Assembly: GCF_900105055.1 (NCBI RefSeq)
Contig: NZ_FNTA01000004.1
Coordinates: 7,223,501 to 7,287,500, forward strand
DNA: 64,000 nucleotides
Direction of reading: 5' to 3'
Origin: Amycolatopsis lurida
GTDB taxonomy: Bacteria; Actinomycetota; Actinomycetes; Mycobacteriales; Pseudonocardiaceae
Every line of letters starts with the position of its first letter. The stretch's first letter is position 1. Of the stretch, positions 42,452 to 62,085 are shown in pieces. The notes beneath the pieces were generated by a model. It was not told the origin of the DNA, searched no databases, and worked only from the letters and a program-made list of their open reading frames with translations. Made by a program: the position numbers and the translations under genes.

Positions 42452-43613
42452 CTCGGTTCACCTTGTTCCGTTCGAAGTGGTTGAGGAGCGGGCCGGTCAT
42501 GGCCGTCGTCACGAGGGCCATGGCGACCATCGCGGTGTAGAAGGCGCTGTCGATGACGCCGAGGCCGAGCCCGATGCCGAGGAAGACGAGTTCGGTGACG
42601 CCGCGGGTGTTCATCAGGGTCGCGAACACCGCCGCCGGATGGGGAGGCTGTCCGGCGAGGCGGGCGCCGAGGTAGGCGCCACCACCTTTCGCGACGACGG
42701 CGACCGCGATGATCGCGAGGGTTTCGGTCACCAGGGCGCCGTCGAGCTCGCCGAGGTCGACCTTCCGTCCGATGAGGACGAAGTACAGCGGGACCAGCAG
42801 GGACGCGAGGGGGGTGATCAGCGCGACGGGGTCGTGCCGGGACGCGGGCCGCCCGGCGGCCACACCGACCAGGAACGCGCCGATCGCGGCGTGCAGGCCG
42901 ATGGCATCGGTCATCGCGGCTCCGGAGCAGGCGAGGGCGACCATGGTCGCGACCGCGGTCGGCCCGGACACGCGATCCATCGTCCGGCCGAACCACGGCC
43001 GGCCGAGGATGAGCAGGCCCAGCAGGAACGGGAACGCCCCCAGGAGCGCCCAGGCCTGCACTCCACTGTGGACGGACGCGACGACGGCGAGCGCCGCCCA
43101 TGCGGTGGCGTCGGTGAGCGCCGCGGCGGTGAGCGCGCAGCGGCCGCGGTCGTCGTCCAGCATCCGCCGTTCGGCCAGAATTCGCGCCAGCACGGGAAAG
43201 GCGGTCACCGCCATGGCCGCGGCGGCGAACAGGACGAACGGGGCGACCCCGGCCGGAGCGTGGCGGGTGGCCAGCCAAACCGCCAGCAGCGCGCCGAGGA
43301 CGATCGGGACGACGGTCGCGCCCAGCGCGGGCACGAACGCCGCCGTGATCCGTGCCGCGGGCATCGACGGCGCGAGGCGGGCGCCGACCCCGAACAGGAA
43401 CAGGATCAGGCCGAGTTGGGCGAGCGCGTCCAGCGTCGTGTCGACGCCACCGGGCAGGCCCGGACCGGCCTGCAGGGCGAGGCCGACGACGAGCCCGCAG
43501 GTGATCTCCCCGAGGACGGCGGGCTGTCCGGCCCGGGTGAACACCCAGCCGAAACAGCGGGCCAGGGCGAGCAGGACGGCGAGGGCGGCGAGCAGAACGG
43601 CCAGATCAGGCAT
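42444..43613 (-). CDS. Cation:proton antiporter (CPA2 family)
   Basis: A 389-residue protein with about twelve membrane helices, of the Kef/NapA-like exchanger family: GEITCGLVVGLAL, LILFLFGVGARL, ALTDATAWAAL (ion-site Asp) and a late MNTRGVTELVFL. ATG 43613 lies inside the end of the halogenase gene (8-bp overlap); the frame in front is a shadow. It has no C-terminal nucleotide-binding domain. In a biosynthetic operon such antiporters may export product or balance ions during self-protection; this is inference. Confidence 0.85.
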   Translation of the reverse strand: MPDLAVLLAALAVLLALARCFGWVFTRAGQPAVLGEITCGLVVGLALQAGPGLPGGVDTTLDALAQLGLILFLFGVGARLAPSMPAARITAAFVPALGATVVPIVLGALLAVWLATRHAPAGVAPFVLFAAAAMAVTAFPVLARILAERRMLDDDRGRCALTAAALTDATAWAALAVVASVHSGVQAWALLGAFPFLLGLLILGRPWFGRTMDRVSGPTAVATMVALACSGAAMTDAIGLHAAIGAFLVGVAAGRPASRHDPVALITPLASLLVPLYFVLIGRKVDLGELDGALVTETLAIIAVAVVAKGGGAYLGARLAGQPPHPAAVFATLMNTRGVTELVFLGIGLGLGVIDSAFYTAMVAMALVTTAMTGPLLNHFERNKVNRDA

Positions 43614-44970
43614 CGGGCACCCGCCACCGCCTGCCGTCCGCGGTGGGGACGAGCCCACCGGGGAACATCGGCGGTTCGTCGCCCGCGGCTTCGCCGAGCA
43701 GGCCGCGTAACTGCAGTTGCACACCTTCGGCGAGCACGTCGCCGAACATCGCGCGAGAGAAGTCCTGTGAGGACACTCCGCCGACGAGACCGGCGAAAGC
43801 CGCTTCGGCGGCACCGTGATGGCCGGTCAGCCGTCGCGCCTGCCGGAAGTAGTCGTCTTCGTCGGAGTCCAGTTGGTAGAAGGTGATGAGGAAATCCCGG
43901 AACAGTCCGAATTCCCGGCGGTAGCGGGCTTCGAACTCGGCGAAGCAGCGCTTCTCGTCCGAGAAACCCGCGAGTGTGCTGTTGATCGACCGGGCGGCCA
44001 GCAACGCGCTGTAGGTGGCCAGGTGCACCCCCGAGGAGAACACCGGGTCGATGAAGCAGGCGGCGTCTCCGACGAGCACCATGCCCGGGGACCACAGCAC
44101 GGTCCGGTCGTAGGAGTAGTCCTTCCGCACACGGAGGCGGTCGTAGGGTGGCTCGGTCGCGCGGCGCGCGTCGCGGAGGTACTCCTCGATGAGCGGGCAA
44201 TCCTCGATCAGCGCCGAGTAGGCCACGTCAGGATCGCCCTGGACGCGATCCGCCGATTCGTGTCTGACGACGGCTCCGACGCTGGTCAAGGTGTCCGACA
44301 GCGGGATGTACCAGAACCAGCCGTCGGGGAACGAGACGCACAGGATGTTCCCGGTGTCGGGCGCGGGCATCCGGCGACCGCCCTCGAAGTACCCGAACAG
44401 CGCCAGGTTCCGGAAATGCGGCGAGTACTCGCGGGTGCCGCCGACGTCGTGGTGGAGCCTGCTCCCGTGCCCCGAGGCGTCGACCACGAACCTGGCCGTC
44501 GCCCGCCGTTCGTGCCCGGCTTCGTCGAGGTAGCGGACGCCGCCGACCCGCTCGCCCACCCGGATGGTGCCGAGTGCTCGATGTCCTTGCCGGATCTCGG
44601 CGCCGAGCCGGCGGGCGCCGTCGAGCAGCAGCGCGTCGAACCGGGTGCGCTCGACCTGGTAGGCGTACGACGTGGGCCCGGCCATGCGGTCGGACGCGGC
44701 GAAGGAGAACGTCCACGGTTCGGCACCGGTGCCCCATTTGAAGGTGCCGCCCCGTTTGCGGACGAATCCGGCCCGTTCGATCTCGTCGCGGACCCCGAGC
44801 ATCGCGCAGATCCCGTGGATCGTGGCGGGCAGCAGGGATTCCCCGATCTGGTAGCGCGGGAAGTGGTCCTTGTCCAGCAGCAGCACCCGGTGACCTTCCG
44901 CGGCGATGAGGCCGGCGGCGGTGGAACCACCCGGCCCGCCACCCACGACGATCACGTCGTAGTCGTCCAT
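43606..44970 (-). CDS. FADH2-dependent halogenase (carrier-bound tyrosine type)
   Basis: A 454-residue flavin halogenase. GGGPGGSTAA (10-19) binds FAD, Lys78 lies in GGTFKWG where these enzymes have the catalytic lysine, and DGWFWYIP (216-223) is the WxWxIP signature that separates halogenases from monooxygenases. Segments FPRYQIGESLLPAT, YFEGGRRMP, GDAACFIDPVFSSGVHLATY and the LFPGG-like end follow the glycopeptide chlorinases that act on tyrosyl groups bound to a peptidyl carrier. The start forms TGATG with the stop of the adenylation-carrier gene. No flavin reductase is adjacent, so reduced flavin must come from elsewhere. Confidence 0.92.
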   Translation of the reverse strand: MDDYDVIVVGGGPGGSTAAGLIAAEGHRVLLLDKDHFPRYQIGESLLPATIHGICAMLGVRDEIERAGFVRKRGGTFKWGTGAEPWTFSFAASDRMAGPTSYAYQVERTRFDALLLDGARRLGAEIRQGHRALGTIRVGERVGGVRYLDEAGHERRATARFVVDASGHGSRLHHDVGGTREYSPHFRNLALFGYFEGGRRMPAPDTGNILCVSFPDGWFWYIPLSDTLTSVGAVVRHESADRVQGDPDVAYSALIEDCPLIEEYLRDARRATEPPYDRLRVRKDYSYDRTVLWSPGMVLVGDAACFIDPVFSSGVHLATYSALLAARSINSTLAGFSDEKRCFAEFEARYRREFGLFRDFLITFYQLDSDEDDYFRQARRLTGHHGAAEAAFAGLVGGVSSQDFSRAMFGDVLAEGVQLQLRGLLGEAAGDEPPMFPGGLVPTADGRRWRVPDA

Positions 44971-46721
44971 CACGGCGTCACTCCTTTCTCTTGGGTGGGA
45001 ACGAGTTCGGCAATCCGGGCCACCGTGCGGCGCACCAGGACGTCCCGCAGCGAACACGGCACGCCCAGTGCCCGTAGCCGCGCGGCGAGCGCCGCGGCGG
45101 AGAGGCTGTGCCCACCGAGGTCGAAGAAGTCGCTGTCCGCGTCGACCGCCGGAATCTCCAGCTGGACCCGGAACGCGGCGGCGACGAGCTTCTGTGGGGA
45201 GGTCAGCACGACAGCCCGCCGCACCGGGACGGGCGGGGCGAGGGCGGCCCGGTCGATCTTCCCGGTCGGCCCGAGGGGCATGGCGTCGAGCGGGATCACG
45301 GCGGAGGGCAGCAGATACGCAGGCAGCACCGCCCGCAGCCGTTCTCGCAGCCGCGTGACGGTTCCCGTGTCGAGCACGACGTAGGCGACCAGCCGCGGGT
45401 CGGTGCCTTCGACCCGGACCGCGGCCTGCCGGACCCCGGGAGAGGCGAGTAGTGCCTGCTCCACCTCGCCCGGCTCGACCCGGTGGCCCCGGATCTTGAC
45501 CTGATCGTCCAGCCTGCCCAGCCATTCGAGGTGACCGTCGGCCGCGAGACGGCACCGGTCGCCGGTCCGGTACCGGCGTTCTCCCGCGGTGACGAACCGG
45601 TCCGCGGTCAGCTCCGGCCGCCCGAGGTAGCCCAGCGCGAGGCAGGAGCCGCTGATCAGGAGTTCGCCGGGTTCCCCGATCGGCACCGGCCGCAGCTCCT
45701 CGTCGACGACCTGGGCGGTGGTGTTGCCGATGGGCCGCCCGATCGACGGCGTCGCGCGTTCATCGAGACCGCAGGACGTGGTGAACACCGTGCACTCGGT
45801 CGGGCCGTAGAGGTTCACCGCGGTGACCTCCGCCGCGCCACGCAGCTGTGACCAGAGATCTTGCCCGATGGCCTCACCGCCCATCAACAGCATCCGCGGA
45901 CGAGCGGGCCCATCGAGTAATCCGGCTTCCAGCAGTGCCGACATGTGCGCGGGCACCGCTTCTACGACGGACAGCCGGTGCTCCCGCACGAAGTCCACAT
46001 AGGAACCTGGATCCGTACGGACCGGATCGGGGACCAGATGCAGTTCGTGCCCTCCCGCCAGCCACGACAGCGGGTTCCACGACGCGTCGAAGACCAGCGG
46101 CAGACCATGTGCCACCCGCTGCGGGCCTCGGCCCGCGGGAAAGAACCGGTCGGCGAGTTCGCCGCACAGGTTGACCAGGCTCCGATGTCCCACCAGGACC
46201 CCTTTGGGCAGGCCCGTCGAGCCGGAGGTGTAGACGAGGTACGCCGGGCCGGCGACGGCTCCGGGCGACCGGTGTCCGGTGTGCCCCGCGAGCTCCGCCT
46301 TCCAGTCCTCTGTGGACAGGACTACGTCCGCCCGCTCCGCGAGACTCTCGACGTCCGTCAGCACGACGGAGGGGCGGGCGTCGGCGAGGATCGCGTAGAG
46401 GCGTGCGGTGGGCAGGGCGGGGTCGATCGGAAGGTGCACCGCTGCCGCCTTCGCCGTCGCGAGCACGCCCAGCACGGCCCGGACGGACCGGGTCATCGCG
46501 CAGGCCACCACCGTCCCCGGCGACGCGCCCGCGTTCCGCAGCACCTGGGCGAGCCGCTCGGCCCAGAGGTCGAGTTCGTGGAACGTCCAGGAGACCTCGT
46601 CGGCCACCAGGCAGACCCGCCCGGGGGCCTTCCTGGCCTGAGACTCGAACAAGTCGCACCAGGTCACGCGGGGGAGCCGGCGCGCCACGCCGCTCACCGA
46701 GGACAACGCGGGGTCAGTCAT
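44970..46721 (-). CDS. Adenylation-peptidyl carrier didomain (NRPS loading protein)
   Basis: A 583-residue A-PCP protein without condensation domain. Adenylation motifs: YTSGSTGLPKG (164-174), FDASW (211-215), LYGPTEC, YRTGD, RLDDQVKIRGHRVE and the late Lys in GPTGKIDRA. The carrier has FDLGGHSLS with Ser539 for phosphopantetheine. The DA start and an LG pair in the pocket resemble codes for tyrosine or hydroxyphenylglycine, but this was aligned by eye and is tentative. ATG 46721 overlaps the thioesterase stop by 8 bp. With the halogenase next to it, the protein most likely presents tyrosine as a thioester for chlorination. Confidence 0.9.
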   Translation of the reverse strand: MTDPALSSVSGVARRLPRVTWCDLFESQARKAPGRVCLVADEVSWTFHELDLWAERLAQVLRNAGASPGTVVACAMTRSVRAVLGVLATAKAAAVHLPIDPALPTARLYAILADARPSVVLTDVESLAERADVVLSTEDWKAELAGHTGHRSPGAVAGPAYLVYTSGSTGLPKGVLVGHRSLVNLCGELADRFFPAGRGPQRVAHGLPLVFDASWNPLSWLAGGHELHLVPDPVRTDPGSYVDFVREHRLSVVEAVPAHMSALLEAGLLDGPARPRMLLMGGEAIGQDLWSQLRGAAEVTAVNLYGPTECTVFTTSCGLDERATPSIGRPIGNTTAQVVDEELRPVPIGEPGELLISGSCLALGYLGRPELTADRFVTAGERRYRTGDRCRLAADGHLEWLGRLDDQVKIRGHRVEPGEVEQALLASPGVRQAAVRVEGTDPRLVAYVVLDTGTVTRLRERLRAVLPAYLLPSAVIPLDAMPLGPTGKIDRAALAPPVPVRRAVVLTSPQKLVAAAFRVQLEIPAVDADSDFFDLGGHSLSAAALAARLRALGVPCSLRDVLVRRTVARIAELVPTQEKGVTP

Positions 46722-52116: not shown

Positions 52117-53544
52117 CTAGGCTGACGGCCACTGGGCGGTGAGCCGTTCCACCGCCGCCTCGATGTTGACCGCACCGGCTCCATAGGTCCGGATGCTGGC
52201 TTCGACCCGCGGAGTCACGTCGTCCGGCATGCCGACGGCCACCACGATCGCGTCGGGCCGGGCGGTCAGGGCCTCGGCCAGCCGGGCCGCTTGCCAAGGG
52301 GTCCGGTAAGCGTCCCTCACCACCAGCACCACCGGGCCGGTCGACGGCAAGACCACCGGGTCGTCTTCGGCGGCGAGCACCGCCGAGTGGGCAGCGCCGA
52401 GTTCGGTCAGCCGGTCGGCGAGGCTCCAGTGGGCCTCGCCCAGCGCGTTGCCGCCGGCGCGCAGTTCGACCACGAAGGCGGGAGCGGTCAACGCGACCGG
52501 TCCGTGGACGCGCAGCGCGCGCCGCGCGGCCTCGAGCCCGAGATCGCGCGGAGCGGCCAGAGCGCGCAGAGTGGAAACTCGCGTGGCCGCGGTTTCCAGT
52601 GTCTCCAAAGAAAGTGTGCCGGCGCGGACTGCTTCGGAGACCGACGCGCGGATGACCGCGCAGAGCTCCTCACCCTCGGTCGGGCCGAGCAGCAGCAGAT
52701 CCGATCCCGCCCGCAGGGCACGGACGGCCACCGCGCCGATGTCCTGGTTGCCTTGGCCCGCTTCGATGGCGATCGCGCTGGACAGCAGCACACCTTCATA
52801 GCCCAGCTCGTCGCGGACGAGGTCGTGGAGCAGGCGGCGGCTCAGCGTCGCCGGGTTGTCCGGGTCCAGTGCGGGATAGAGCACGTGGGCGGTCATCATC
52901 GCGTGGACGCCCGCCTTGATCGCCGACACGAACGGCGCCAGCTCGCGCTCGCGGAACGTCGCATCCGGAATGTCCACAATGGGCAATGCGTGGTGCGGGT
53001 CGGTCACCGTCGCGCCGTGGCCGGGAAAGTGCTTGGCGCAGACGGACACGCCACCGTCCTGCATGGACTCGATGAACGCAGCGCCGTGTGAAGCGACCAG
53101 ATCCGGCCGGGCGCCGAAGGACCGGACGCCGATGATCGGGTTGTCGGGATCGCTGTTGACGTCGATCGACGGGGCCAGGTTGAGGTTGACGCCGCAGGCC
53201 TTCAGATCCGCCGCGATGGCCGCGGCGACCTCGGCGGTCAGCGTCAGGTCGTCGATCTCGCCGAGCGCCAGGTTGCCCGGATACGCGCTGCCGGTTTCGT
53301 AGTCGAGGCGGGTGACGTCGCCGCCCTCCTCGTCCAGCGCGATCAGCGCGTCGGGCGCCGTCCGCCGTAGCGCGCGGGTGTGCCGGACGATCGCTTGCCT
53401 GCCACCGTCCAGATTGGCCGGGAACAGGGTGACCCCGGCGAGCCCGTCATCGAGCGCCGAATGCACCCAGGCCGGCGGTGCGGCCCCGGTGTACCCGGCG
53501 AGCAGGCAGGCGTTGACGAGCCGGTCCAACTCATTCACCGACAA
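52117..53544 (-). CDS. GH3-family protein lacking the catalytic nucleophile
   Basis: A 475-residue protein with the NagZ-like glycoside hydrolase 3 barrel: ALDEEGGDVTRL (70-80), KHFPGHGATVTDPHHALP (171-188, with the His of the acid/base loop), AHVLYPALDP and a C-terminal second domain. In NagZ the nucleophile Asp stands in an SD pair of the GVxxSDxL motif; here the motif is GVLLSSAIAI with Ser256 at that place. The protein may bind rather than cut N-acetylglucosamine-type sugars, or use another residue. It is the last gene of the nine-gene operon, overlapping the HAD gene by 14 bp. Confidence 0.85.
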   Translation of the reverse strand: MSVNELDRLVNACLLAGYTGAAPPAWVHSALDDGLAGVTLFPANLDGGRQAIVRHTRALRRTAPDALIALDEEGGDVTRLDYETGSAYPGNLALGEIDDLTLTAEVAAAIAADLKACGVNLNLAPSIDVNSDPDNPIIGVRSFGARPDLVASHGAAFIESMQDGGVSVCAKHFPGHGATVTDPHHALPIVDIPDATFRERELAPFVSAIKAGVHAMMTAHVLYPALDPDNPATLSRRLLHDLVRDELGYEGVLLSSAIAIEAGQGNQDIGAVAVRALRAGSDLLLLGPTEGEELCAVIRASVSEAVRAGTLSLETLETAATRVSTLRALAAPRDLGLEAARRALRVHGPVALTAPAFVVELRAGGNALGEAHWSLADRLTELGAAHSAVLAAEDDPVVLPSTGPVVLVVRDAYRTPWQAARLAEALTARPDAIVVAVGMPDDVTPRVEASIRTYGAGAVNIEAAVERLTAQWPSA

Positions 53545-54346
53545 CGGAGTTCTCCTTCGCGTAGAGCTGTTCGAGTACGACGGCGACGCCGTCTTCGCTG
53601 TTGCTGCCGATCACGTGGTCCACCAGTGCGAGCACGTCGGGATGAGCGTTGGCCACGCCGTACGCCGTACCTGCCCAGGACAGCATCGGCAGGTCGTTGG
53701 GCATGTCACCGAACGCGATCACGTCCGAGGCCGCCACCCCGCTCCGCGCGGCCAGCCGGGCCAGCGCGGCCGCCTTGTTCACGCCGATCGCGATCGCTTC
53801 GACCAGGCGTGAGCCGTTGGAGTGGTACGCGGCGACGAGCCCCTCCAAGGCCGGCTTGGCCAGCGCGAGGAGTTCGTCGGCGGACAGCGAGGGGTGCCTG
53901 CCGAGCAGCTTCGGCGCGGGCAGGCTCAGCAGCGTCGCGTCGTCGGCGCGTTCGATCGTGGCGCCGCGGTCCCATTCCCACGGCTCGTAAACCGAGTCCG
54001 CGACCAACCGGTCGGCGTGCTCCACGGCGATACCGATGCCGGGGATCGCCGCCCGCAGCCTGGCGACCGCTTCGGCCAGATCCGGGGTCGTGATGGCGTA
54101 TTCCTCGACGACCGTCCTGGTGTGCATGTCGTACAGGTAGGCGCCATTGGAGCAGATCGCGAGGCCCCGGTCACCGAATCGGCCGGCGATCTCCGCCACC
54201 AGCCGCGGTGGGCGGCCGGTGGCGACCACGAATTCGGCGCCCGATTCTTCGACGAGCGCGAACGCCGACACCGTGCGGTCGGAGATCGTGCCGTCCGGGC
54301 GTACCACCGTGCCGTCGAGATCCGTCGCCACCAGCAAGGGCGTCAT
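53531..54346 (-). CDS. HAD-superfamily phosphatase (Cof type)
   Basis: A 271-residue HAD-IIB phosphatase: motif I LLVATDLDGTVV (Asp8/Asp10 region), VVATGRPPR (motif II Thr), late NKAAALARLA (Lys) and motif IV FGDMPNDLPML. Such enzymes remove phosphate from sugar phosphates or nucleotides. ATG 54346 overlaps the glycosyltransferase stop (ATGA); the longer frame is a shadow. In this operon it may dephosphorylate a sugar intermediate. Confidence 0.88.
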   Translation of the reverse strand: MTPLLVATDLDGTVVRPDGTISDRTVSAFALVEESGAEFVVATGRPPRLVAEIAGRFGDRGLAICSNGAYLYDMHTRTVVEEYAITTPDLAEAVARLRAAIPGIGIAVEHADRLVADSVYEPWEWDRGATIERADDATLLSLPAPKLLGRHPSLSADELLALAKPALEGLVAAYHSNGSRLVEAIAIGVNKAAALARLAARSGVAASDVIAFGDMPNDLPMLSWAGTAYGVANAHPDVLALVDHVIGSNSEDGVAVVLEQLYAKENSVVGE

Positions 54347-56124
54347 GGAATCAATCCTTCGTCCGAGAACAATCCGGTCCAGGCGTCCCGGCTGGTCAGC
54401 CGCGGCAGCGCCGCGCGGTACCGCTCGCGGACGGCGGCGCCGTCGCGGATGAACCGGGTGAGCACTCGGGCGCCCTGGTACGCCAGCCGGACCAGGTGAG
54501 CCCGGTCGTACGTGCGGACGCGGACACCTCGTTGCGACGCGTCGGTCACCACCGCCGTGCGCAGCGCGCCGACCCGCCACCAGTCGGCCTCCGAAACCGG
54601 CACGGAGCCCAGGGCGAGCCGGTGCACGCCGAGCAACGGCCCGAGTGCCAGCCGGTCGAAGACACTCGGTTCGCTGATCGCGATGTCGTTCGACGCGAGC
54701 CCCGGGACGGCCGTCGGTGGATGCGCGACGGTCTCCGGATGGCGGGAACGCACCTCGCGGATCCGCGCCAGCGCCGCGACCCCGCCATCGCGCAGGATGT
54801 CCGGCCCGTCGAGAAAGTCCGACACCGCTTGGATCAGGGTCGCCGCGGCGCCGTATCGCATGCCCAGCAGCGAGGGGATCAGCTCGGCGAGCAGGGTTCC
54901 GGCGATCTTCAGCACCGGGAAATCGCCGTGCAGCGCCGAGATGATCGTGTAGTTGCGCAGGATGAAGTACCGATTGAGCTCGTCGGAGTCCTTCCACGGG
55001 AAGTCGGTGTGCCACAGGCCCGCGCCCGGCAGTGTCACCGTCGGGAATCCGTGTGCCCGTGCCCGGTAGGAGTACTCGGCGTCGTCACCCTGGAAGAAGA
55101 GGGGGAGCGGATAGCCGGTCTCCTTGACCACCTCGTACGGGATCAGGCACGCCCACCAGCCGTTGTAACCCGCGTCGACGCGGAACTCCTGCCGGTACGG
55201 CCTGCCGGTGGCCGGATCCGTGGCCAGCAGGTCGACCGCGTGCAGGCTGTGCCGGATCGGCATGCCCGGCCGGATGCCGTCCAGGTCGGTGTACTCGGCC
55301 GCCGCGTGCAACCGCGTGGGGTGCAGCAGGTTCAGCATCTGGCCGCCGAGGATCAGCGGTTCCGCCGTGGACGCCGAAAACGCCGTCATCCGGACGAGCA
55401 GGTCGGGTTCCAGCACGATGTCGTCGTCCATGAACAGCATGTTCACGTTCTCGCCGTCGACCTCGTACAGGCCGCGCGTGAAACCGCCCGCGCCACCCAG
55501 GTTCGGCTGCCGCAGGTACCGCAGCTTGCCCGGCGGCAGAACGCCCTCGGCCGGCACCGGGTCGGTGCCCTGATCGACGACGTACACGGCGTGCACCGTG
55601 GCCTGCGCCAAGTCGTCATCGGCGATCGCGGTCAGCGTGGCGAGGCAGTCGGCCGGGCGGTTCATCGTGCAGATGGTCACCACCGTCGGCCGTGACCGCT
55701 CCGCCGCCGGAACCGTCCAGCGCACGTCGCGGACGACAAGCCGTTGGCCCGGTTCGGTTTCCCAGTCCAGCCACAACGCGCCGCCGTCGACGAACCGGTC
55801 GAGGGGGGCGACCAGCGAGATCGGCCCGCCGTCCACCACCCGCGCCGCCACCACGCGCGGCTCGCCCTCGAAGTCCGACGCCAGCAGGGAAACCGTGCCG
55901 GAACCAGCGGCCTCCAGTCCGACCTCGACGACGCCGGCCGTCGTCCAGCGCTGCCAGTAGCTGGCCGGGAACCGTCCGAAGTACGTGTTGCCGGAGACCT
56001 TCGACGCGGATTCGAGGGTGAGTGTGGTCCGCTCGCGGCGAGCGCCGCCCGAGACGACCTGAACGTAGAGATCCTTGCCGATCACCCCATCGGGCCCGGC
56101 GAACAGCCCGCGCTGCGCGATCAC
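54343..56124 (-). CDS. GT2 glycosyltransferase, GlfT2-like
   Basis: A 593-residue transferase starting at the GTG that overlaps the upstream stop. Residues about 1-145 form a beta-rich front domain (GNTYFGRFPASYWQRWTTAG). The GT-A domain follows: VVTICTMNRPADC, the DxD motif in MLFMDDDIVL, YNGWWACLIPYEVV, FFQGDDAEYSYRARAHGFPT and the LWHTDFPWKD His. This order matches GlfT2, the galactofuranosyltransferase of mycobacterial cell-wall galactan. Whether the donor is UDP-galactofuranose here is not known; the setting with Dcd-like and AurF-like genes is unlike a galactan locus. Confidence 0.85.
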   Translation of the reverse strand: MIAQRGLFAGPDGVIGKDLYVQVVSGGARRERTTLTLESASKVSGNTYFGRFPASYWQRWTTAGVVEVGLEAAGSGTVSLLASDFEGEPRVVAARVVDGGPISLVAPLDRFVDGGALWLDWETEPGQRLVVRDVRWTVPAAERSRPTVVTICTMNRPADCLATLTAIADDDLAQATVHAVYVVDQGTDPVPAEGVLPPGKLRYLRQPNLGGAGGFTRGLYEVDGENVNMLFMDDDIVLEPDLLVRMTAFSASTAEPLILGGQMLNLLHPTRLHAAAEYTDLDGIRPGMPIRHSLHAVDLLATDPATGRPYRQEFRVDAGYNGWWACLIPYEVVKETGYPLPLFFQGDDAEYSYRARAHGFPTVTLPGAGLWHTDFPWKDSDELNRYFILRNYTIISALHGDFPVLKIAGTLLAELIPSLLGMRYGAAATLIQAVSDFLDGPDILRDGGVAALARIREVRSRHPETVAHPPTAVPGLASNDIAISEPSVFDRLALGPLLGVHRLALGSVPVSEADWWRVGALRTAVVTDASQRGVRVRTYDRAHLVRLAYQGARVLTRFIRDGAAVRERYRAALPRLTSRDAWTGLFSDEGLIP

Positions 56125-57191
56125 CGGCACACCTCGGCGGTCACGGCCGCCAGGCCTGCGGCGGTCCCGGACAGCGGGAACCGGGCCGCGTTGCGCAGTC
56201 CGGCCGCACGCAGGTCCGTCAACGCGCTGTCGTCCTTGGCCAGGAGACGGACGGTGTCCGCGAGCGTGGACCGGGTGAACCGCAGCGCCGAATCGCCCAG
56301 CACCTCGGTCAACCCCGGCACCGGCTGATACGCCACCGGCAACCCGCAGGCCTGCGCCTCGACCGCGACGAGCCCGAACGCTTCCAACGTCGTCGACGGC
56401 ATCACGAGCAGGTCGTGCCGCGCGAAGGCCTGCCACAACGCGGGGCGGTCGAACCAGCCGAGGTAGTCGACTTGAGTCGTGTCCACCGGTAGTGCGGCGA
56501 ACTCGTGCTCGGGAGCCGCGACGCACAACGTCACGCCGGGCAGCCCCGTCAGGTCCGCGATCAGCTCGGCCGCCCCCTTCTCCGCGGTCAGCCGCCCGGC
56601 GTACAGCACCCGGAAGCCGTCCCGCGTCCCGGGCCGCGGCGGCGGCGAGTGCAGCAGCCGATCGGGGATTCCCCATGGCACGTGCACGATCCGCTTCGGT
56701 TCGACCGGCGTGACCTCGCGCAGGAGGCCGGCCATCGCCGAGGTCGGCACGACGACCGCGCCTGTCGACGCGGCGGCTTCGCGCAGCACGTCACGCTGGG
56801 TGGGATGCTCGGCCGCGAAGAGCAGATCGGTGCCGTGCACCAGGGCGATCCGCGGATGGTCCGGGAACGCACGGAGCAACGCGGGCGTGGCACCGAAACT
56901 CAAGTGCTGCCAATGCACCGCGTCGAAATCGGCCGGATCGAACCGACGTCGGATCGCGGTCGCCAACGCGTCCACATAGGACCAGAATCCCGGACCGTCG
57001 AGCTGCTTTCCCGGCACGTCGAGCAGGTGCGGCCCGCCGGGCTGCGCGCCGGAGCCGAGCATGAAGACGTCGGCCGCGATCGGCGCTTCCGGCGCGAGGT
57101 AGAGATCCTTGAGGAGCTCGACGCTCCCGCCGGGGCTGCCCGGCGGGAGGTCGATCCCGGTCAGTGTCTTCGGTGTCTTCGGTGTCTTCAC
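56121..57191 (-). CDS. GT4-family glycosyltransferase
   Basis: A 356-residue GT-B enzyme. The N-terminal half has GSPGGSVELLKDL (acceptor/nucleotide loop); the C-terminal half has VLYAGRLTAEKGA, DYLGWFDR and the donor site STTLEAFGLVAVEAQACGLP with the E-x7-E pattern. The first ten residues (KTPKTPKT) come from a 9-bp tandem repeat, so the start may be variable. It overlaps both neighbours by 4 bp and probably adds the first or second sugar of the product. Confidence 0.87.
   Translation of the reverse strand: MKTPKTPKTLTGIDLPPGSPGGSVELLKDLYLAPEAPIAADVFMLGSGAQPGGPHLLDVPGKQLDGPGFWSYVDALATAIRRRFDPADFDAVHWQHLSFGATPALLRAFPDHPRIALVHGTDLLFAAEHPTQRDVLREAAASTGAVVVPTSAMAGLLREVTPVEPKRIVHVPWGIPDRLLHSPPPRPGTRDGFRVLYAGRLTAEKGAAELIADLTGLPGVTLCVAAPEHEFAALPVDTTQVDYLGWFDRPALWQAFARHDLLVMPSTTLEAFGLVAVEAQACGLPVAYQPVPGLTEVLGDSALRFTRSTLADTVRLLAKDDSALTDLRAAGLRNAARFPLSGTAAGLAAVTAEVCR
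57166..57189. repeat. 9-bp tandem repeat at the start of the GT4 gene
   Basis: The unit GTCTTCGGT is present 2.7 times. It encodes the KTP repeats at the N-terminus of the glycosyltransferase. Because the unit is a multiple of three, changes in copy number would not shift the frame. Confidence 0.7.
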
Positions 57192-57712
57192 GACAGTTCC
57201 TCGTACAGCCGGGAAATGTCGATACCGGACGTGCTCGTGTACTTCACGCCGACGTGCTGATAGCTCGCCAGGGACCCGTGCGCGACCAGGAAGATGATCT
57301 TGCCGAAGGTCATCAGCGGATAGACCCGGACCGGCCTGGCCACCCTGATCTCCAGCGTCCAGTTGATCGCGTGGCCGACGTGCCCGAGCGGCGCCGAGAC
57401 ATGGACCCAGATACCGAGCCCGCCGATCGTGTGGTCACCGTTGATCATCTGCGCGTAGCGCTCGGAACGTGTCCGCTCGTGGGTGACACCGAGGTACAGC
57501 CGCCCCGGCTCGAGCACCAGCCCCTCGGGCGGGATGACGAGTTCGGTGAACGGGGTCGACCTCGCCGCGTCCAGCTCCGTGTCGAAGACGCGCATCTTCT
57601 CGCCGAGGCGCCAGTCGTACGCGTTGGGCGACAACCGGTCCGGCTCGAACGGGTCGATCACGATGTCCCCGCTCTCCAGTGCCTTCTCGATCGCCTTGCG
57701 GGTGAGGATCAC
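57188..57712 (-). CDS. Dcd/dUTPase-like protein A (has catalytic Glu, lacks RSS motif)
   Basis: A 174-residue protein of the dCTP deaminase fold: ILTRKAIEKALESGDIVIDP, then LSPNAYDWRLG and late WTLEIRVARPVRVY. Glu121 in INWTLEI aligns with the catalytic Glu138 of E. coli Dcd. The other conserved element, the RSS loop of the neighbouring subunit (GRSSxxRxG), is replaced by GDHTIGGLG (92-100). GTG 57712 overlaps the stop of the second Dcd-like gene (GTGA), so both are made in step. Alone it should be inactive; a shared active site with protein B is a testable idea. Confidence 0.85.
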   Translation of the reverse strand: MILTRKAIEKALESGDIVIDPFEPDRLSPNAYDWRLGEKMRVFDTELDAARSTPFTELVIPPEGLVLEPGRLYLGVTHERTRSERYAQMINGDHTIGGLGIWVHVSAPLGHVGHAINWTLEIRVARPVRVYPLMTFGKIIFLVAHGSLASYQHVGVKYTSTSGIDISRLYEELS

Positions 57713-58239
57713 GACGTGACCGCCACCCGGTCGCGCCAATAGCGGGATTCTTGCGGGCCGACCGCCGACTGGTACTTCCCCGCGTAGAGATCGATCTCAC
57801 CGGAGGACACGAAGAACATGATCTGGCCGATCTTCATGCCGTGGTAGACCCGCAACGGCTGCACGGGGGAGAGCATGAGCGTCCACTGGCCGTGGAAACC
57901 GATGTCCCCGATCGGTGCGGTGATCTCGACGAACAGCCCGAGCCTGCCGACCGAGGACCGGCCGAACAGCAGCGGCACGTAGATGTCCGAGCCGATGCGC
58001 TCCTCGGTGTGCCCGAGATAGAGCTGGTCGGGCTGGAGCACGTACCCGTCCTCGGGCAGCTGGATCGTCTCGGTCGGGTTCGGGTGGTAGGCGTCGACGA
58101 CCTTGTCCCGATAGGACATCAGCGTGCCGCCGAGCTTGACGTTGTAGCTGTTCGGGTTGACCTGGTCCGGGCTGAACGGGGAGATCGCGATCCGGCCGTC
58201 GGTCACCGACTCGGTGATCTCGGGCCCGGTCAGGATCAT
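57709..58239 (-). CDS. Dcd/dUTPase-like protein B (has RSS motif, lacks catalytic Glu)
   Basis: A 176-residue Dcd-fold protein: MILTGPEITESVTDGRIAIS, NPNSYNVKLG, then GRSSVGRLGLFVEITA (93-108) with Arg94, Ser95, Ser96 and Arg99 as in active deaminases. The position of the catalytic Glu holds Met122 (GQWTLMLS). It lies directly in front of the partner gene and overlaps the AurF-like gene by 4 bp. Dcd enzymes are trimers with sites between subunits, one side giving the RSS loop and the other the Glu, so A and B have complementary defects. Confidence 0.87.
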   Translation of the reverse strand: MILTGPEITESVTDGRIAISPFSPDQVNPNSYNVKLGGTLMSYRDKVVDAYHPNPTETIQLPEDGYVLQPDQLYLGHTEERIGSDIYVPLLFGRSSVGRLGLFVEITAPIGDIGFHGQWTLMLSPVQPLRVYHGMKIGQIMFFVSSGEIDLYAGKYQSAVGPQESRYWRDRVAVTS

Positions 58240-59204
58240 TTGACGCCGCCCTTGGCCGTCACGAAGTGATACTTCACCTTGTCTTCGATCCCGAGGTCCC
58301 GCAGCAGCCGGTGCACCGTGGCGAAGTCGTTCATCATGACTTCGCCGTCCTCCTTGGCTCGGCAGTCGGCGATGATCTCGTCGACGTGCTCGATACCGGC
58401 GAACCGGAGCACCTGCGGCCACAGCTCGTAGTCCTCGGCGCCGAACGCGGTGATCGCCTCGGGGAGGTACCGGATGAAGAACTCCTGCCGCTCCGGCTCC
58501 AGTTTCGGGTAGATCTCCTTCATCAGTTCGGCCAGCACGGGACCGTGCGCCGCCTCGTCGCGGGCGTGCAGCCGGGCGATGAGCGCGTGCATCGGCTGGA
58601 TGGACTTGTCGCCGGCCAGCAGGTCGAGGAAGGCGTTGATGCTGACCTCGCCGACGACCGTCCACATGAGATAGAGCAGATCGCGCTGCCACTGCTCGTC
58701 CATGCTCTCCGCGAGCGCGTAGAGCCTGCGGTTCGTCACCGGCTCCACAAAGGACTCTTCGAGACCGATCCCGCGTGCCTCACGGGTGCGCTGCATCGCC
58801 ATCATGTGCATGTAGGTGTGCCACACCTCGTCGATATGGGACTGCTGGACGACTTCCTTGACCTCGTAGCGGTCGACACCGGGGAAGACGCCGTGCGCGA
58901 GCTTCTCGAAGGTCGGGTTCGCCACGTGTTCCTCGGCGGCGATGACGCGCTCGTTGTAGGCGATCCACGCCAGCGTGTTGACGAGCAGCCGCTGCTCGTC
59001 CGACGCTTCGAGGAACCGCGGGTGCTCCGAGAACGGCATGAGGTGCAGCGGGTAGTCCAGCAGGCTGGGATCGTATTCGCCGGGGTTGACCACTCCGGCC
59101 ATGTCGGTGCGGATGGTCGCGCGCTTGGGCCAGGCCGCTGCCAGCCTGCGCAGCATGCTCGGTCCGACGTGGGTCTCCGCAAGCTCGATGGGATGCATCG
59201 TCAT
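58236..59204 (-). CDS. AurF/CmlI-type diiron N-oxygenase
   Basis: A 322-residue helical diiron protein. The seven ligands of AurF (Glu101, Glu136, His139, Glu196, His223, Glu227, His230) reappear with identical spacing as Glu91, Glu126, His129 (EVWH), Glu186 (VVGEVS), His213, Glu217 and His220 (HARDEAAH). AurF-type enzymes turn amines into hydroxylamines, nitroso or nitro groups with oxygen. ATG 59204 overlaps the deacetylase stop; ATG 59198 is an alternative. In this operon an amine freed by the deacetylase would be a natural substrate; that is inference. Confidence 0.9.
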   Translation of the reverse strand: MTMHPIELAETHVGPSMLRRLAAAWPKRATIRTDMAGVVNPGEYDPSLLDYPLHLMPFSEHPRFLEASDEQRLLVNTLAWIAYNERVIAAEEHVANPTFEKLAHGVFPGVDRYEVKEVVQQSHIDEVWHTYMHMMAMQRTREARGIGLEESFVEPVTNRRLYALAESMDEQWQRDLLYLMWTVVGEVSINAFLDLLAGDKSIQPMHALIARLHARDEAAHGPVLAELMKEIYPKLEPERQEFFIRYLPEAITAFGAEDYELWPQVLRFAGIEHVDEIIADCRAKEDGEVMMNDFATVHRLLRDLGIEDKVKYHFVTAKGGVK

Positions 59205-60271
59205 CTCTCTCCTGTCGCGAAGTTCGGGGTCACCAGGTCTTCGACGCGGACGAACTCGAGTCCGCGGGCCAGTAGTCCTTCGATCACCGACGGCAAGGCG
59301 GTGACGGTCTGGGAACGGTCGCCGCCACCGTCGTGCATCAGCACGATCGAGCCGGGAATCGTTTGCCGCAGCACGGTTCGCGCGATCACCTCCGGGCCGG
59401 GCATCGCCCAGTCCTCGGTGTCGACGTCCCACAGCGCGAGCCGCGCGCCGAGGTCCGTCAGCGAGCGGAGCACCGCGGGGGTCCGTGATCCGTAGGGCGG
59501 GCGGAAGAACGCGGGCACGGCGCCGAAAGCGTCCGCGATCACGTCGCCGGTCCGGTTGAGCTGGTCGGCCAGCTCCGTCGCCGAGAGATCCGGAAGATAG
59601 GGATGGGACCACGTGTGATTGCCGACGCCATGGCCCTGTTCCGCCATCCGCCGCAGATCTTCGCCGCGCGCGCCCGCGTTCAGCCCGACACAGAAGAAGG
59701 TGGCGCGGACCCCGTAGGACTCGAGAATGTCGAGGATCCGCCCGGTGTACGGAGGATGCGGGCCGTCGTCGAACGTGAGCGCGATCTGCCCGCGGGTCCG
59801 GTCGCCGTGCTCCAGTGAGCGCCCGGCCGCGGTCATCGCGGCCAGCGCTTCGTCGCTGGAGGCCATCGCCGCGTGATGTTCGTCCAGCCGCCCGGTGAGC
59901 GAACCCGACTCGATCTTCAAGCGCACCAACGAGCCGGGATCTCGCCACGCCGCGCGCGCCAGCTCGACGGCGGGCACCGAGCCGAAACCCGGCCTCGGCG
60001 GCAGGATGGCCGGGTCGGCGCGGTACATGTCCAGGCCGGCGGCCATGAAACCGCCGTCGAGCATGCCGTTGGTGCTGTCGACGACCGCGGTCACCGAGCG
60101 GCCGAGGCCGTTCAGATAGGACGCGATCTCCTTGCTCCGGTCCGCGGCGAACCGCACGGCCGGCCGGTCACCGTGCCCGTTCCCGTCGAGGACCGCGATC
60201 TCGAAACCCGAGGCGGTCCAGCCGATTCCGGCGTACAGCATCGATTTACCCCCATGGTGCGTGTCACTCAA
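59201..60271 (-). CDS. NodB polysaccharide deacetylase with RNase-H-like front domain
   Basis: A 356-residue protein. Residues about 162-345 are a complete NodB domain: LTFDDGPHP (Asp168/169), NHTWSHP (His219, His223), FRPPYG, WDVDTEDW and VLMHDG. These zinc enzymes deacetylate N-acetylglucosamine-type residues. Residues about 11-110 (LYAGIGWTASGFEIAVLDGN, TAVVDSTNGMLDGGFMAAGL) resemble the RNase-H-like start of IS110 transposases, but with Gly in place of the first catalytic Asp (YAGIGW for YAGIDW). No signal peptide is seen, so it acts in the cytoplasm. It overlaps both neighbours by 4 bp. Confidence 0.85.
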   Translation of the reverse strand: MSDTHHGGKSMLYAGIGWTASGFEIAVLDGNGHGDRPAVRFAADRSKEIASYLNGLGRSVTAVVDSTNGMLDGGFMAAGLDMYRADPAILPPRPGFGSVPAVELARAAWRDPGSLVRLKIESGSLTGRLDEHHAAMASSDEALAAMTAAGRSLEHGDRTRGQIALTFDDGPHPPYTGRILDILESYGVRATFFCVGLNAGARGEDLRRMAEQGHGVGNHTWSHPYLPDLSATELADQLNRTGDVIADAFGAVPAFFRPPYGSRTPAVLRSLTDLGARLALWDVDTEDWAMPGPEVIARTVLRQTIPGSIVLMHDGGGDRSQTVTALPSVIEGLLARGLEFVRVEDLVTPNFATGER

Positions 60272-61473
60272 TCCAGTCCGGCTGTGGTGAGGTGCCTGGC
60301 GGTCGCCCGCCGGACGACGACCGGTCCGGCGATGGCGATCACCGCCGCGAGCAGGCCGGGTACCACCATGGCGGTGCCCAGCGAGGTGGCGTCGGCGAGC
60401 GGGCCGATGACCGCGGGCCCGCCGAGCTGCCCGGCGTAGGCCATGGTGGTCACCCAGGAAAGCGCGCGCCCGACGTTCGCGCCACCCGCGCCGACGGCGC
60501 TGAAGATCGCCGGTACGACGGTCGCCAGACCGGCCGCCACGACCACCCAGCCGACCAGGCCGAAAGCCAGCCGTGCCCCGGGAAGCAGCGGCGCGACGAG
60601 AACGAGCGCGTACCCCAGCACGGCGACCGATCCCGCGTACCGCATCCAGCTCGCCGGGTTCACCTTCGACCGGATCCGGTCGGCGGTGAGCCGGGAAACG
60701 GTCAGCGCGGCGGCGAACGCCGTGTACGCGAACGACGCCGTCGCCGGATCCGCGCCGAGCATTCCTTGCGCGTGCAGGGAAGCCCAGCTGTAACCGGCGC
60801 CCTCGCTGACGAAACCGGCCAGTGCGACCAAGCCGAGCAGCATGATGGTGCTCGTCGGCAGCCCGGCGGAAGAGACGACCGGGTCATCCGTCACCTCGCC
60901 TTGTGTCTTGCCGGTCAGCAAATGCTTGCCGGGCAAGAGAAACAGTGCTGCCGCGACCACACCGGCGCCGACCATCAGCGCCGGGCCACCCGTTTCGAGA
61001 TGCAGGCCGATGGTGATCGTGAGGCCGCCGGCCACTCCTCCCAGGCTCCACACCCCGTGGAACGCCGACATGATCGAGCGTCCGTAGCGGGTTTCCACCT
61101 CGACCGCGTGGCCGTTCATCGCGACGTCCAAGGAGCCGAGCGCACCGCCGAGCACGAACGCGGCGACCAGCAGTACCGGAAAATTCGGGGCCAGCGCGGG
61201 GCCGAGCAGCGTGAGCGCCGCGACGGGCGCGATCACCCGTAACACCGCGCGGCTCGACCAGGCGTCGGCCAGCCGCCCGGCCACCGGCATGCAGGCCATC
61301 GAGCCGAGCGCGGTGCTCAGCAGGACCAGCCCGATCCGGCCTTCGCCGAGGTGGAGCCGGGCGTTGATCGACGGCAGTGACGCGCTCCAGACGGCGCAGA
61401 TCAAGCCGCAGAGCCCGAAAACGCCCATCACGGCCAATCTGGCGCGACGAACGGCGGGCTCGGGACGCGTCAC
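60268..61473 (-). CDS. MFS transporter, first gene of the nine-gene operon
   Basis: A 401-residue major facilitator with about twelve helices: VFGLCGLICAVWSASLPSIN, LADAWSSRAVLRV (loop 2-3 motif), GALGSLDVAMNGHAVEVE and FHGVWSLGGVAGG, a pattern like the FucP/YbjJ-type group. It starts at GTG 61473 behind GAAGGAAG and overlaps the deacetylase gene by 4 bp. It is the first gene after the operator at 61592 and could export the product or import a sugar precursor. Confidence 0.87.
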   Translation of the reverse strand: MTRPEPAVRRARLAVMGVFGLCGLICAVWSASLPSINARLHLGEGRIGLVLLSTALGSMACMPVAGRLADAWSSRAVLRVIAPVAALTLLGPALAPNFPVLLVAAFVLGGALGSLDVAMNGHAVEVETRYGRSIMSAFHGVWSLGGVAGGLTITIGLHLETGGPALMVGAGVVAAALFLLPGKHLLTGKTQGEVTDDPVVSSAGLPTSTIMLLGLVALAGFVSEGAGYSWASLHAQGMLGADPATASFAYTAFAAALTVSRLTADRIRSKVNPASWMRYAGSVAVLGYALVLVAPLLPGARLAFGLVGWVVVAAGLATVVPAIFSAVGAGGANVGRALSWVTTMAYAGQLGGPAVIGPLADATSLGTAMVVPGLLAAVIAIAGPVVVRRATARHLTTAGLD

Positions 61474-61653: not shown

Positions 61654-62085
61654 TCACCGTTCGAGCGGCGTCGCGAGCAGGGCGCGCACGGCCGCCAGCT
61701 CGTCGTCACCTTTCACCGAGGCGACCCAAGGCCTCGTCAAATGATCACCCGCCCTCCTGGGCACCAGGTGGACATGAAGGTGGAAGACGTCCTGCCAGCC
61801 GGCGGATCGGTTGGCCTGGAACAAGGTCAATCCGTCCGGCCGCAGCACTTCGCGGATCCGGGCGGCCATCGAGTGGACGGTCCGCATGACGGCGGCCGCG
61901 CCCTCGGCGGAGATCTCCCAGATGTCGGCGGCATGGGCCCGGGGTATCACCAGGGTGTGTCCCGGCGTCACGGCGGTGTGGTCGAGGAACGCGATCGTGG
62001 TCTCGTCCTCGAACAGTACGCGCCCGGTGTCCTGCCGGCCGGCCGCGATCTCGCAGAAAACGCAAGCGGTGTCGGTTTCGTCCAT
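61654..62085 (-). CDS. HIT-family hydrolase
   Basis: A 143-residue histidine triad protein. CVFCEIAAG (zinc-type front), GHTLVIPRAHAADIW and the triad HLHVHLVPR (HxHxHxx) identify it. HIT proteins split nucleoside phosphoramidates or dinucleotides such as ApnA. It lies upstream of the nine-gene operon on the same strand but is separated from it by the operator, so it is probably separately expressed. Confidence 0.9.
   Translation of the reverse strand: MDETDTACVFCEIAAGRQDTGRVLFEDETTIAFLDHTAVTPGHTLVIPRAHAADIWEISAEGAAAVMRTVHSMAARIREVLRPDGLTLFQANRSAGWQDVFHLHVHLVPRRAGDHLTRPWVASVKGDDELAAVRALLATPLER

Follow-up and report, generated by a model that had tools for sequence, protein, structure and literature searches.

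Two adjacent genes of Amycolatopsis lurida raise the question of whether two dCTP deaminase (Dcd)-like proteins, each lacking part of the active site of the family, can be partners in one enzyme. The genes lie on the minus strand of a 64,000-nucleotide stretch of the genome (contig NZ_FNTA01000004.1, positions 7,223,501 to 7,287,500), here called the window. The upstream gene encodes protein B (57709 to 58239; ATG start, 176 residues) and the downstream gene encodes protein A (57188 to 57712; GTG start, 174 residues), and the stop codon of B and the start codon of A overlap in the four bases GTGA (57709 to 57712, minus strand), as the first-pass annotation of this DNA had stated. Both proteins match PF22769 (E values of 1e-25 and 3e-41; bit scores of 90.7 for A and 141.6 for B, with a curated cut-off of 27), which places them in the DCD/dUTPase superfamily. 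Against the dCTP deaminase equivalog TIGR02274 (cut-off 92.8), B scored narrowly above the threshold at 96.2 bits and A below it at 66.4 bits; the match of B to PF06559 fell below the family cut-off. The genome encodes a third Dcd (C4:4293810) that is intact, with KSS, Arg, Asp and Glu in place, and the pair is therefore not the housekeeping enzyme. Full-text literature searches on dCTP deaminase clusters or paralogs and on heterotrimeric dUTPase paralogs turned up no account of Dcd pairs like these.

Active-site residues and fold of the window pair

Glu138 (E. coli Dcd numbering) is the residue responsible for deamination in the Dcd family, and the titles of PDB entries agree with this role. 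In B, the motif II loop Arg94-Ser95-Ser96-Val-Gly-Arg99 (57943 to 57960) and the motif III Asp, Asp112 (57904 to 57906; residue 128 of E. coli Dcd), are present, and Met122 (codon ATG, 57874 to 57876) stands at the position of the catalytic Glu. In A, this position is occupied by Glu121 (codon GAG, 57350 to 57352), that of the motif III Asp by His111 (57380 to 57382), and that of the RSS loop by Gly92-Asp93-His94-Thr95-Ile96-Gly97-Gly98 (57419 to 57439), all on the minus strand. The motifs read GRSSVGRLG ... WTLM in B and NGDHTIGGLG ... WTLE in A. Neither polypeptide combines Glu138 with an RSS loop and Arg115, B being without the Glu and A without the RSS loop and Arg115. The DNA confirmed the two loops, Met122 and Glu121 as they had been annotated; the contrast at motif III, His111 in A versus Asp112 in B, had been missed.

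AlphaFold2 monomer predictions had mean pLDDT values of 93.5 for B and 86.4 for A, the latter with a weak C-terminal arm. The best PDB matches of the B model were dCTP deaminases (TMq up to 0.90; 0.89 for 4xjc) and those of the A model were the M. tuberculosis Dcd entries 4a6a and 2qxx (TMq 0.87); each protein is predicted to have the dCTP deaminase fold. In fold, PF22769 membership, motif order and chain length, the pair is like dCTP deaminases and bifunctional dCTP deaminase-dUTPases, for which we compared structures from E. coli (1xs1), M. tuberculosis (2qxx/4a6a), M. jannaschii (1ogh) and B. halodurans (4xjc). The known Dcd enzymes are homotrimers with RSS/KSS, Asp128 and Glu138 in each chain, whereas the pair splits the Asp and the Glu between paralogous chains.

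DCD and dUTPase enzymes have a common trimeric core with sites in the clefts between subunits, and motif V is absent from DCD-type enzymes (PMC4827122). In the trimeric dUTPase site, motif III comes from one chain and motifs I, II and IV from its neighbor (PMC12524310), and because a site of this type is built from two chains, the RSS loop of B could face the Glu of A. Changing the motif III Asp to Asn in dUTPase hybrids abolished turnover and left binding in place (PMC4827122); from the alignment, we infer that Asp128 of Dcd is equivalent to this residue.

Judging by PDB titles, structures have been solved for E. coli E138A and E138D and for M. jannaschii E145A and E145Q, laboratory changes that hit the very residue naturally replaced in B (by Gln in groups II and III, described below). 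The E138A and E145A/Q entries are ligand complexes, and each chain of the pair is without a residue needed for catalysis in the family. Both points would suit a regulatory or scaffold module, in which the pair is a nucleotide sensor or a catalytic subunit with an allosteric partner, in the manner of the signaling dUTPases; signaling by phage dUTPases is established (PMC5593958). Plain sensing would not need a catalytic acid, however, and one is always kept in each chain, as the following comparison of pairs shows.

The division of Asp128 and Glu138 among related pairs

About 54 distinct pairs were found, in actinobacteria and two rhizobia. The pair is present in 5 of 80 genomes of the same genus, and the GTDB genome collection yielded about 30 further loci, with pairs in Amycolatopsis, Planotetraspora, Streptomyces, Kitasatospora, Nonomuraea, Paractinoplanes, Micromonospora and Microtetraspora. 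Searches at the level of order and class, together with plasmid records that include those of Rhizobium etli and R. sullae, added more divergent pairs. B lies immediately upstream of A in every close intact relative (30 loci), and an ATGA or GTGA overlap is common to 27 of the 28 loci examined, the exception (L069) having a broken B. No lone member of the A or B lineage turned up in the genomes and collections searched. What look like single genes lie at contig ends (L067, L068), are a remnant (L089) or belong to a pair 8 kb apart within one cluster (G282). In order, overlap and invariant motif states, the arrangement of the pair is not a matter of chance. A few relatives are broken: the B frame is disrupted in L069, both genes are truncated in L073, and only a remnant of A is left in L089. 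Lone Dcd proteins encoded on Aneurinibacillus and Paenibacillus plasmids (L154, L155) are some of the closest unpaired relatives of the pairs; they are 46-47% identical to B and have the canonical Asp and Glu.

We scored 11 active-site columns, with E. coli numbering assigned via an alignment in which the intact Dcd of the A. lurida genome served as the anchor. In 188 aligned sequences, a tally in which some genes are counted more than once via overlapping loci, positions 128 and 138 showed three combinations and no other: D/E in 61, (H,N,Q)/E in 65 and D/(M,Q) in 62. All 61 canonical sequences have both acids, and the canonical solo Dcd proteins, from actinobacteria, Bacteroidota, Paenibacillus plasmids and viral contigs, have [KR]SS, Arg115, Asp128 and Glu138. 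Every A protein has Glu138 and a replacement of Asp128 (His in 59, Asn in 5, Gln in 1), and every B protein has Asp128 and a replacement of Glu138 (Met in 36, Gln in 26).

The pairs fall into three groups, namely group I, the window type (about 36 pairs), group II (5 pairs) and group III (13 pairs). The replacement of Glu138 in B is Met throughout group I and Gln in groups II and III. In the first two groups, RSS and Arg115 are found in B only, where they are invariant, and Gln182 of the C-terminal arm, a residue of the known Dcd enzymes, is absent from A and B alike; the A loop of group I is conserved as NGD[HR][ST]. In group III, RSS and Arg115 are present in A, and the B loop is usually weakened to RSG or KSG, with both loops intact in three pairs (L094, L095, L152). 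Among close intact relatives of the window pair, the motif states are invariant. The original claim that the RSS loop belongs to B and the Glu to A thus stands for groups I and II and fails for group III, where A has both. Across the aligned sequences, the exceptionless split is that of Asp128 versus Glu138, and loss of RSS is a secondary layer.

These states bear on whether the partners could be separate, subfunctionalized homotrimers, A being Glu-dependent and acting on a new substrate and B being an Asp-dependent phosphohydrolase or a binding protein. The A proteins of group III retain RSS and Glu, the catalytic pair of bifunctional DCD-DUT enzymes consists of an Asp and a Glu, of which each partner has exactly one, and the genes of a divergent pair can stand 8 kb apart in their cluster, as in G282; all three observations would fit such a division of labor. 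However, translational coupling is near universal, no member was found alone in the genomes and collections searched, and an A homotrimer of group I or II would lack nucleotide phosphate binding because it has neither the RSS loop nor Arg115. We regard separate homotrimers as unlikely.

Descent, selection and genomic neighborhood

We built a tree of 71 rows from which the 11 scored motif columns had been removed. A branch with support of 99/97 separates the solo proteins from all pairs, and since all pairs lie on one side of it, the tree fits one old duplication. All A proteins form a single clade (98/94), within which those of groups I and II form a clade of their own (100/96), so that the loss of RSS in A fits a single event. 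Monophyly of B was absent from the best tree, yet it was not rejected (AU p of 0.37; 0.449 with an earlier set). In a mirror-tree comparison of 26 pairs, A and B distances were correlated with an r of 0.89, and 0 of 2,000 permutations gave a value as high; this correlation is no proof of contact, because joint inheritance in an operon would produce it as well.

Purifying selection acts on both genes, with dN of 0.008-0.25 versus dS of 0.18-0.86, which argues that the altered loops are not products of decay. If the two genes were redundant housekeeping dCTP deaminase copies on their way to loss, canonical residues would be missing from both, as they are, and a few broken relatives might be met, as they were (L069, L073, L089). 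Against this, the altered loops do not vary from genus to genus, dN/dS falls far short of 1, 29 of 30 loci have the pair in an operon with a glycosyltransferase gene, and the genome keeps an intact housekeeping copy. We give decay hardly any weight.

That glycosyltransferase, of the GT4 type (56121 to 57191, minus strand; PF00534/PF13692), is the third gene of the cassette, and B-A-GT4 is the constant core of the 30 group I loci (29 of 30). In the window, the operon reads, in order of transcription and all on the minus strand, a HIT (HinT-like) hydrolase (61654 to 62085), an MFS transporter (60268 to 61428; PF07690), a polysaccharide-deacetylase-like protein (59201 to 60241; PF01522, E value of 3.5e-36 over residues 147-268), an AurF-like diiron N-oxygenase (58236 to 59204), B, A, GT4, a GlfT2-like glycosyltransferase (54343 to 56124; PF17994, PF19320), a Cof-type HAD phosphatase (53531 to 54346; PF08282, TIGR00099) and a beta-N-acetylhexosaminidase-like member of glycoside hydrolase family 3 (52117 to 53538; PF00933, with NF003740 below its cut-off). 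Most of the junctions are 4-base overlaps. The HIT hydrolase is a recurrent partner (cluster c5, in 13 of 30 loci), and the AurF-like protein (PF11583, E value of 4.5e-36; NF045603 at 316 bits, below its cut-off), whose gene overlaps B by 4 bases, occurs in 6 of 30. The first 140 residues of the deacetylase-like protein match no Pfam family. Elsewhere in the window (43606 to 46721, minus strand), two adjacent genes read from the sequence as a FAD-dependent oxidoreductase/halogenase-like protein and an NRPS adenylation-carrier-like protein.

Other pairs keep different company. In 14 Streptomyces-type loci, genes for a MurA-like protein and a UshA-like metallophosphoesterase precede B, and a serine hydrolase gene follows GT4. 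This cassette (L056-L062, L064-L072, L151) lies beside XRE-type regulators, with relaxase-like genes in several loci; it is plasmid-borne in NBC_00161, and several copies are found at contig ends of S. roseicoloratus. The group I-type cassette also adjoins NRPS-like, YcaO-like, diiron-oxygenase, hydroxyphenylglycine (Hpg)-pathway-like and MurA-like genes; near that of Micromonospora phaseoli (L063:15621-18002), the Hpg-pathway-like genes, as read from the sequence, are of the aminotransferase-like and hydroxymandelate-oxidase-like types. Group II pairs neighbor a P-loop kinase and a PPDK-like protein, the latter fused to B in two genomes, where a B-type Dcd domain is joined to a PPDK_N and PEP-utilizer protein of 827-828 residues (L090:9944-12430, L096:8575-11058); in L091 and L092 the PPDK-like protein is encoded by a separate next gene. 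Group III pairs neighbor a P-loop kinase; in loci other than L094, the neighbors include a stand-alone cytidine deaminase, a methyltransferase, NUDIX or MazG, NDP-sugar genes and GT4. The kinase upstream of one pair (L094:7684-8709) has a C-terminal cytidine deaminase domain (PRK06848, E value of 1e-43), and a close homolog of similar length lies upstream of another (L095:7565-8623); the cytidine-deaminase-like gene of L153 and L158 stands by itself, after B.

These gene families point to nucleotide and sugar chemistry as the common theme of the neighborhoods, which are accessory operons that look like specialized metabolism. The HIT gene and MccH immunity suggest, as a guess, a nucleoside phosphoramidate as the product. 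The regulatory or scaffold module considered above finds no counterpart here: no regulator or target is conserved alongside the pair, whose constant partners are enzymes, and there was no match to a defense family. Such a module seems improbable to us. A role in anti-phage defense was rejected, with no match of PADLOC models to A, B or GT4, and so was a phage origin, the phage collection giving 7 weak matches and the relatives on viral contigs being canonical D/E proteins that occur solo.

An obligate heteromer as the favored explanation

The explanation that we favor, and consider probable, is that A and B are the obligate subunits of one heteromeric enzyme, a DCD/dUTPase superfamily member that was recruited for specialized metabolism; we infer the complex, its stoichiometry, its catalysis and its substrate from the comparisons above. 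Because each partner always has just one of the two catalytic acids, A and B probably function only jointly. Old co-occurrence, translational coupling, co-divergence and purifying selection are as expected of an obligate complex, which is thereby supported at the level of sequence. The neighbors that we count in its favor are the kinase, cytidine deaminase, PPDK-like protein, NUDIX, MazG, HIT, UshA-like phosphoesterase and GT4. Counted against it is that any Glu-bearing site of the pairs is without the motif III Asp.

By alignment and tree, a single duplication would have given rise to an A lineage that kept the deaminase-type Glu and lost the motif III Asp, and to a B lineage that kept the Asp and lost the Glu. 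In the window pair, a full RSS-plus-Glu site would arise only where motif III of A (His111, Glu121) comes to lie opposite the RSS loop of B, and since each site joins motif II of one chain to motif III of the next, a window-type trimer would have one such site. Group III has no need of this composite B-A site, because its A has both RSS and Glu. The loss of Gln182 from both partners of groups I and II means that dCTP deamination may be gone altogether, and suggests that the substrate in these groups is no longer dCTP. The substrate is most likely a pyrimidine nucleotide or an NDP-sugar, whose product would pass to the adjacent GT4 glycosyltransferase, and the joint product is probably a nucleotide-derived building block of a natural product.

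A more specific form of the heteromer, to which we assign a small share of probability, is a natural heterotrimer with three different sites, in which the Glu and the Asp act in sequence on a nucleotide of natural-product metabolism. In groups I and II, an AB2 trimer would have an RSS-plus-Glu site (B to A), an RSS-plus-Asp site (B to B) and a dead site (A to B). An A2B trimer of those group III pairs with a weakened B loop would have the same three kinds of site, with A and B trading places. Each of the two residues that a bifunctional deaminase-phosphohydrolase uses for catalysis would then occupy a site of its own within one trimer. This arrangement would cover groups I, II and most of III, provided that the RSS-bearing chain is present twice.

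Several known systems resemble an obligate heteromer in part. The Agrobacterium two-domain dCTP deaminase (2r9q, PF06559; TMq of 0.66 to B), whose second half is Dcd-like, has two Dcd-type domains per functional unit; unlike the pair, it is a single chain of 370 residues, about twice as long. The monomeric herpesvirus (EBV-type) dUTPase shares with the pair a duplication followed by motif loss from one copy, and its single active site takes motif III from one domain and motifs I, II and IV from the second (PMC12524310). It is one fused chain with a rearranged motif order, confined to eukaryotic viruses, whereas the pair consists of two separate bacterial genes of a different superfamily branch. 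The three-domain dUTPase of D. virilis and engineered linked human hybrids are trimers with nonidentical subunits, as proposed for the pair, and in these pseudo-heterotrimers the remaining sites work independently once others are broken (PMC4827122; PMC12524310). Unlike the pair, they are composed of near-identical domains or are laboratory constructs, with no natural split of catalytic residues.

The first-pass observation is thus confirmed and generalized, and its interpretation is partly supported and, in assigning the split to the RSS loop and the Glu, corrected. Genes of this kind are annotated in databases as plain dCTP deaminases and are probably something else, and they mark an uncharacterized operon family whose product is probably nucleotide-derived. 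Homotrimeric enzymes with intersubunit sites are a textbook setting in which to study the origin of heteromers after gene duplication. The pairs described here provide a natural series, from both loops intact through one weakened to one lost, always with one catalytic acid per partner, which makes the question of how such heteromers originate testable.
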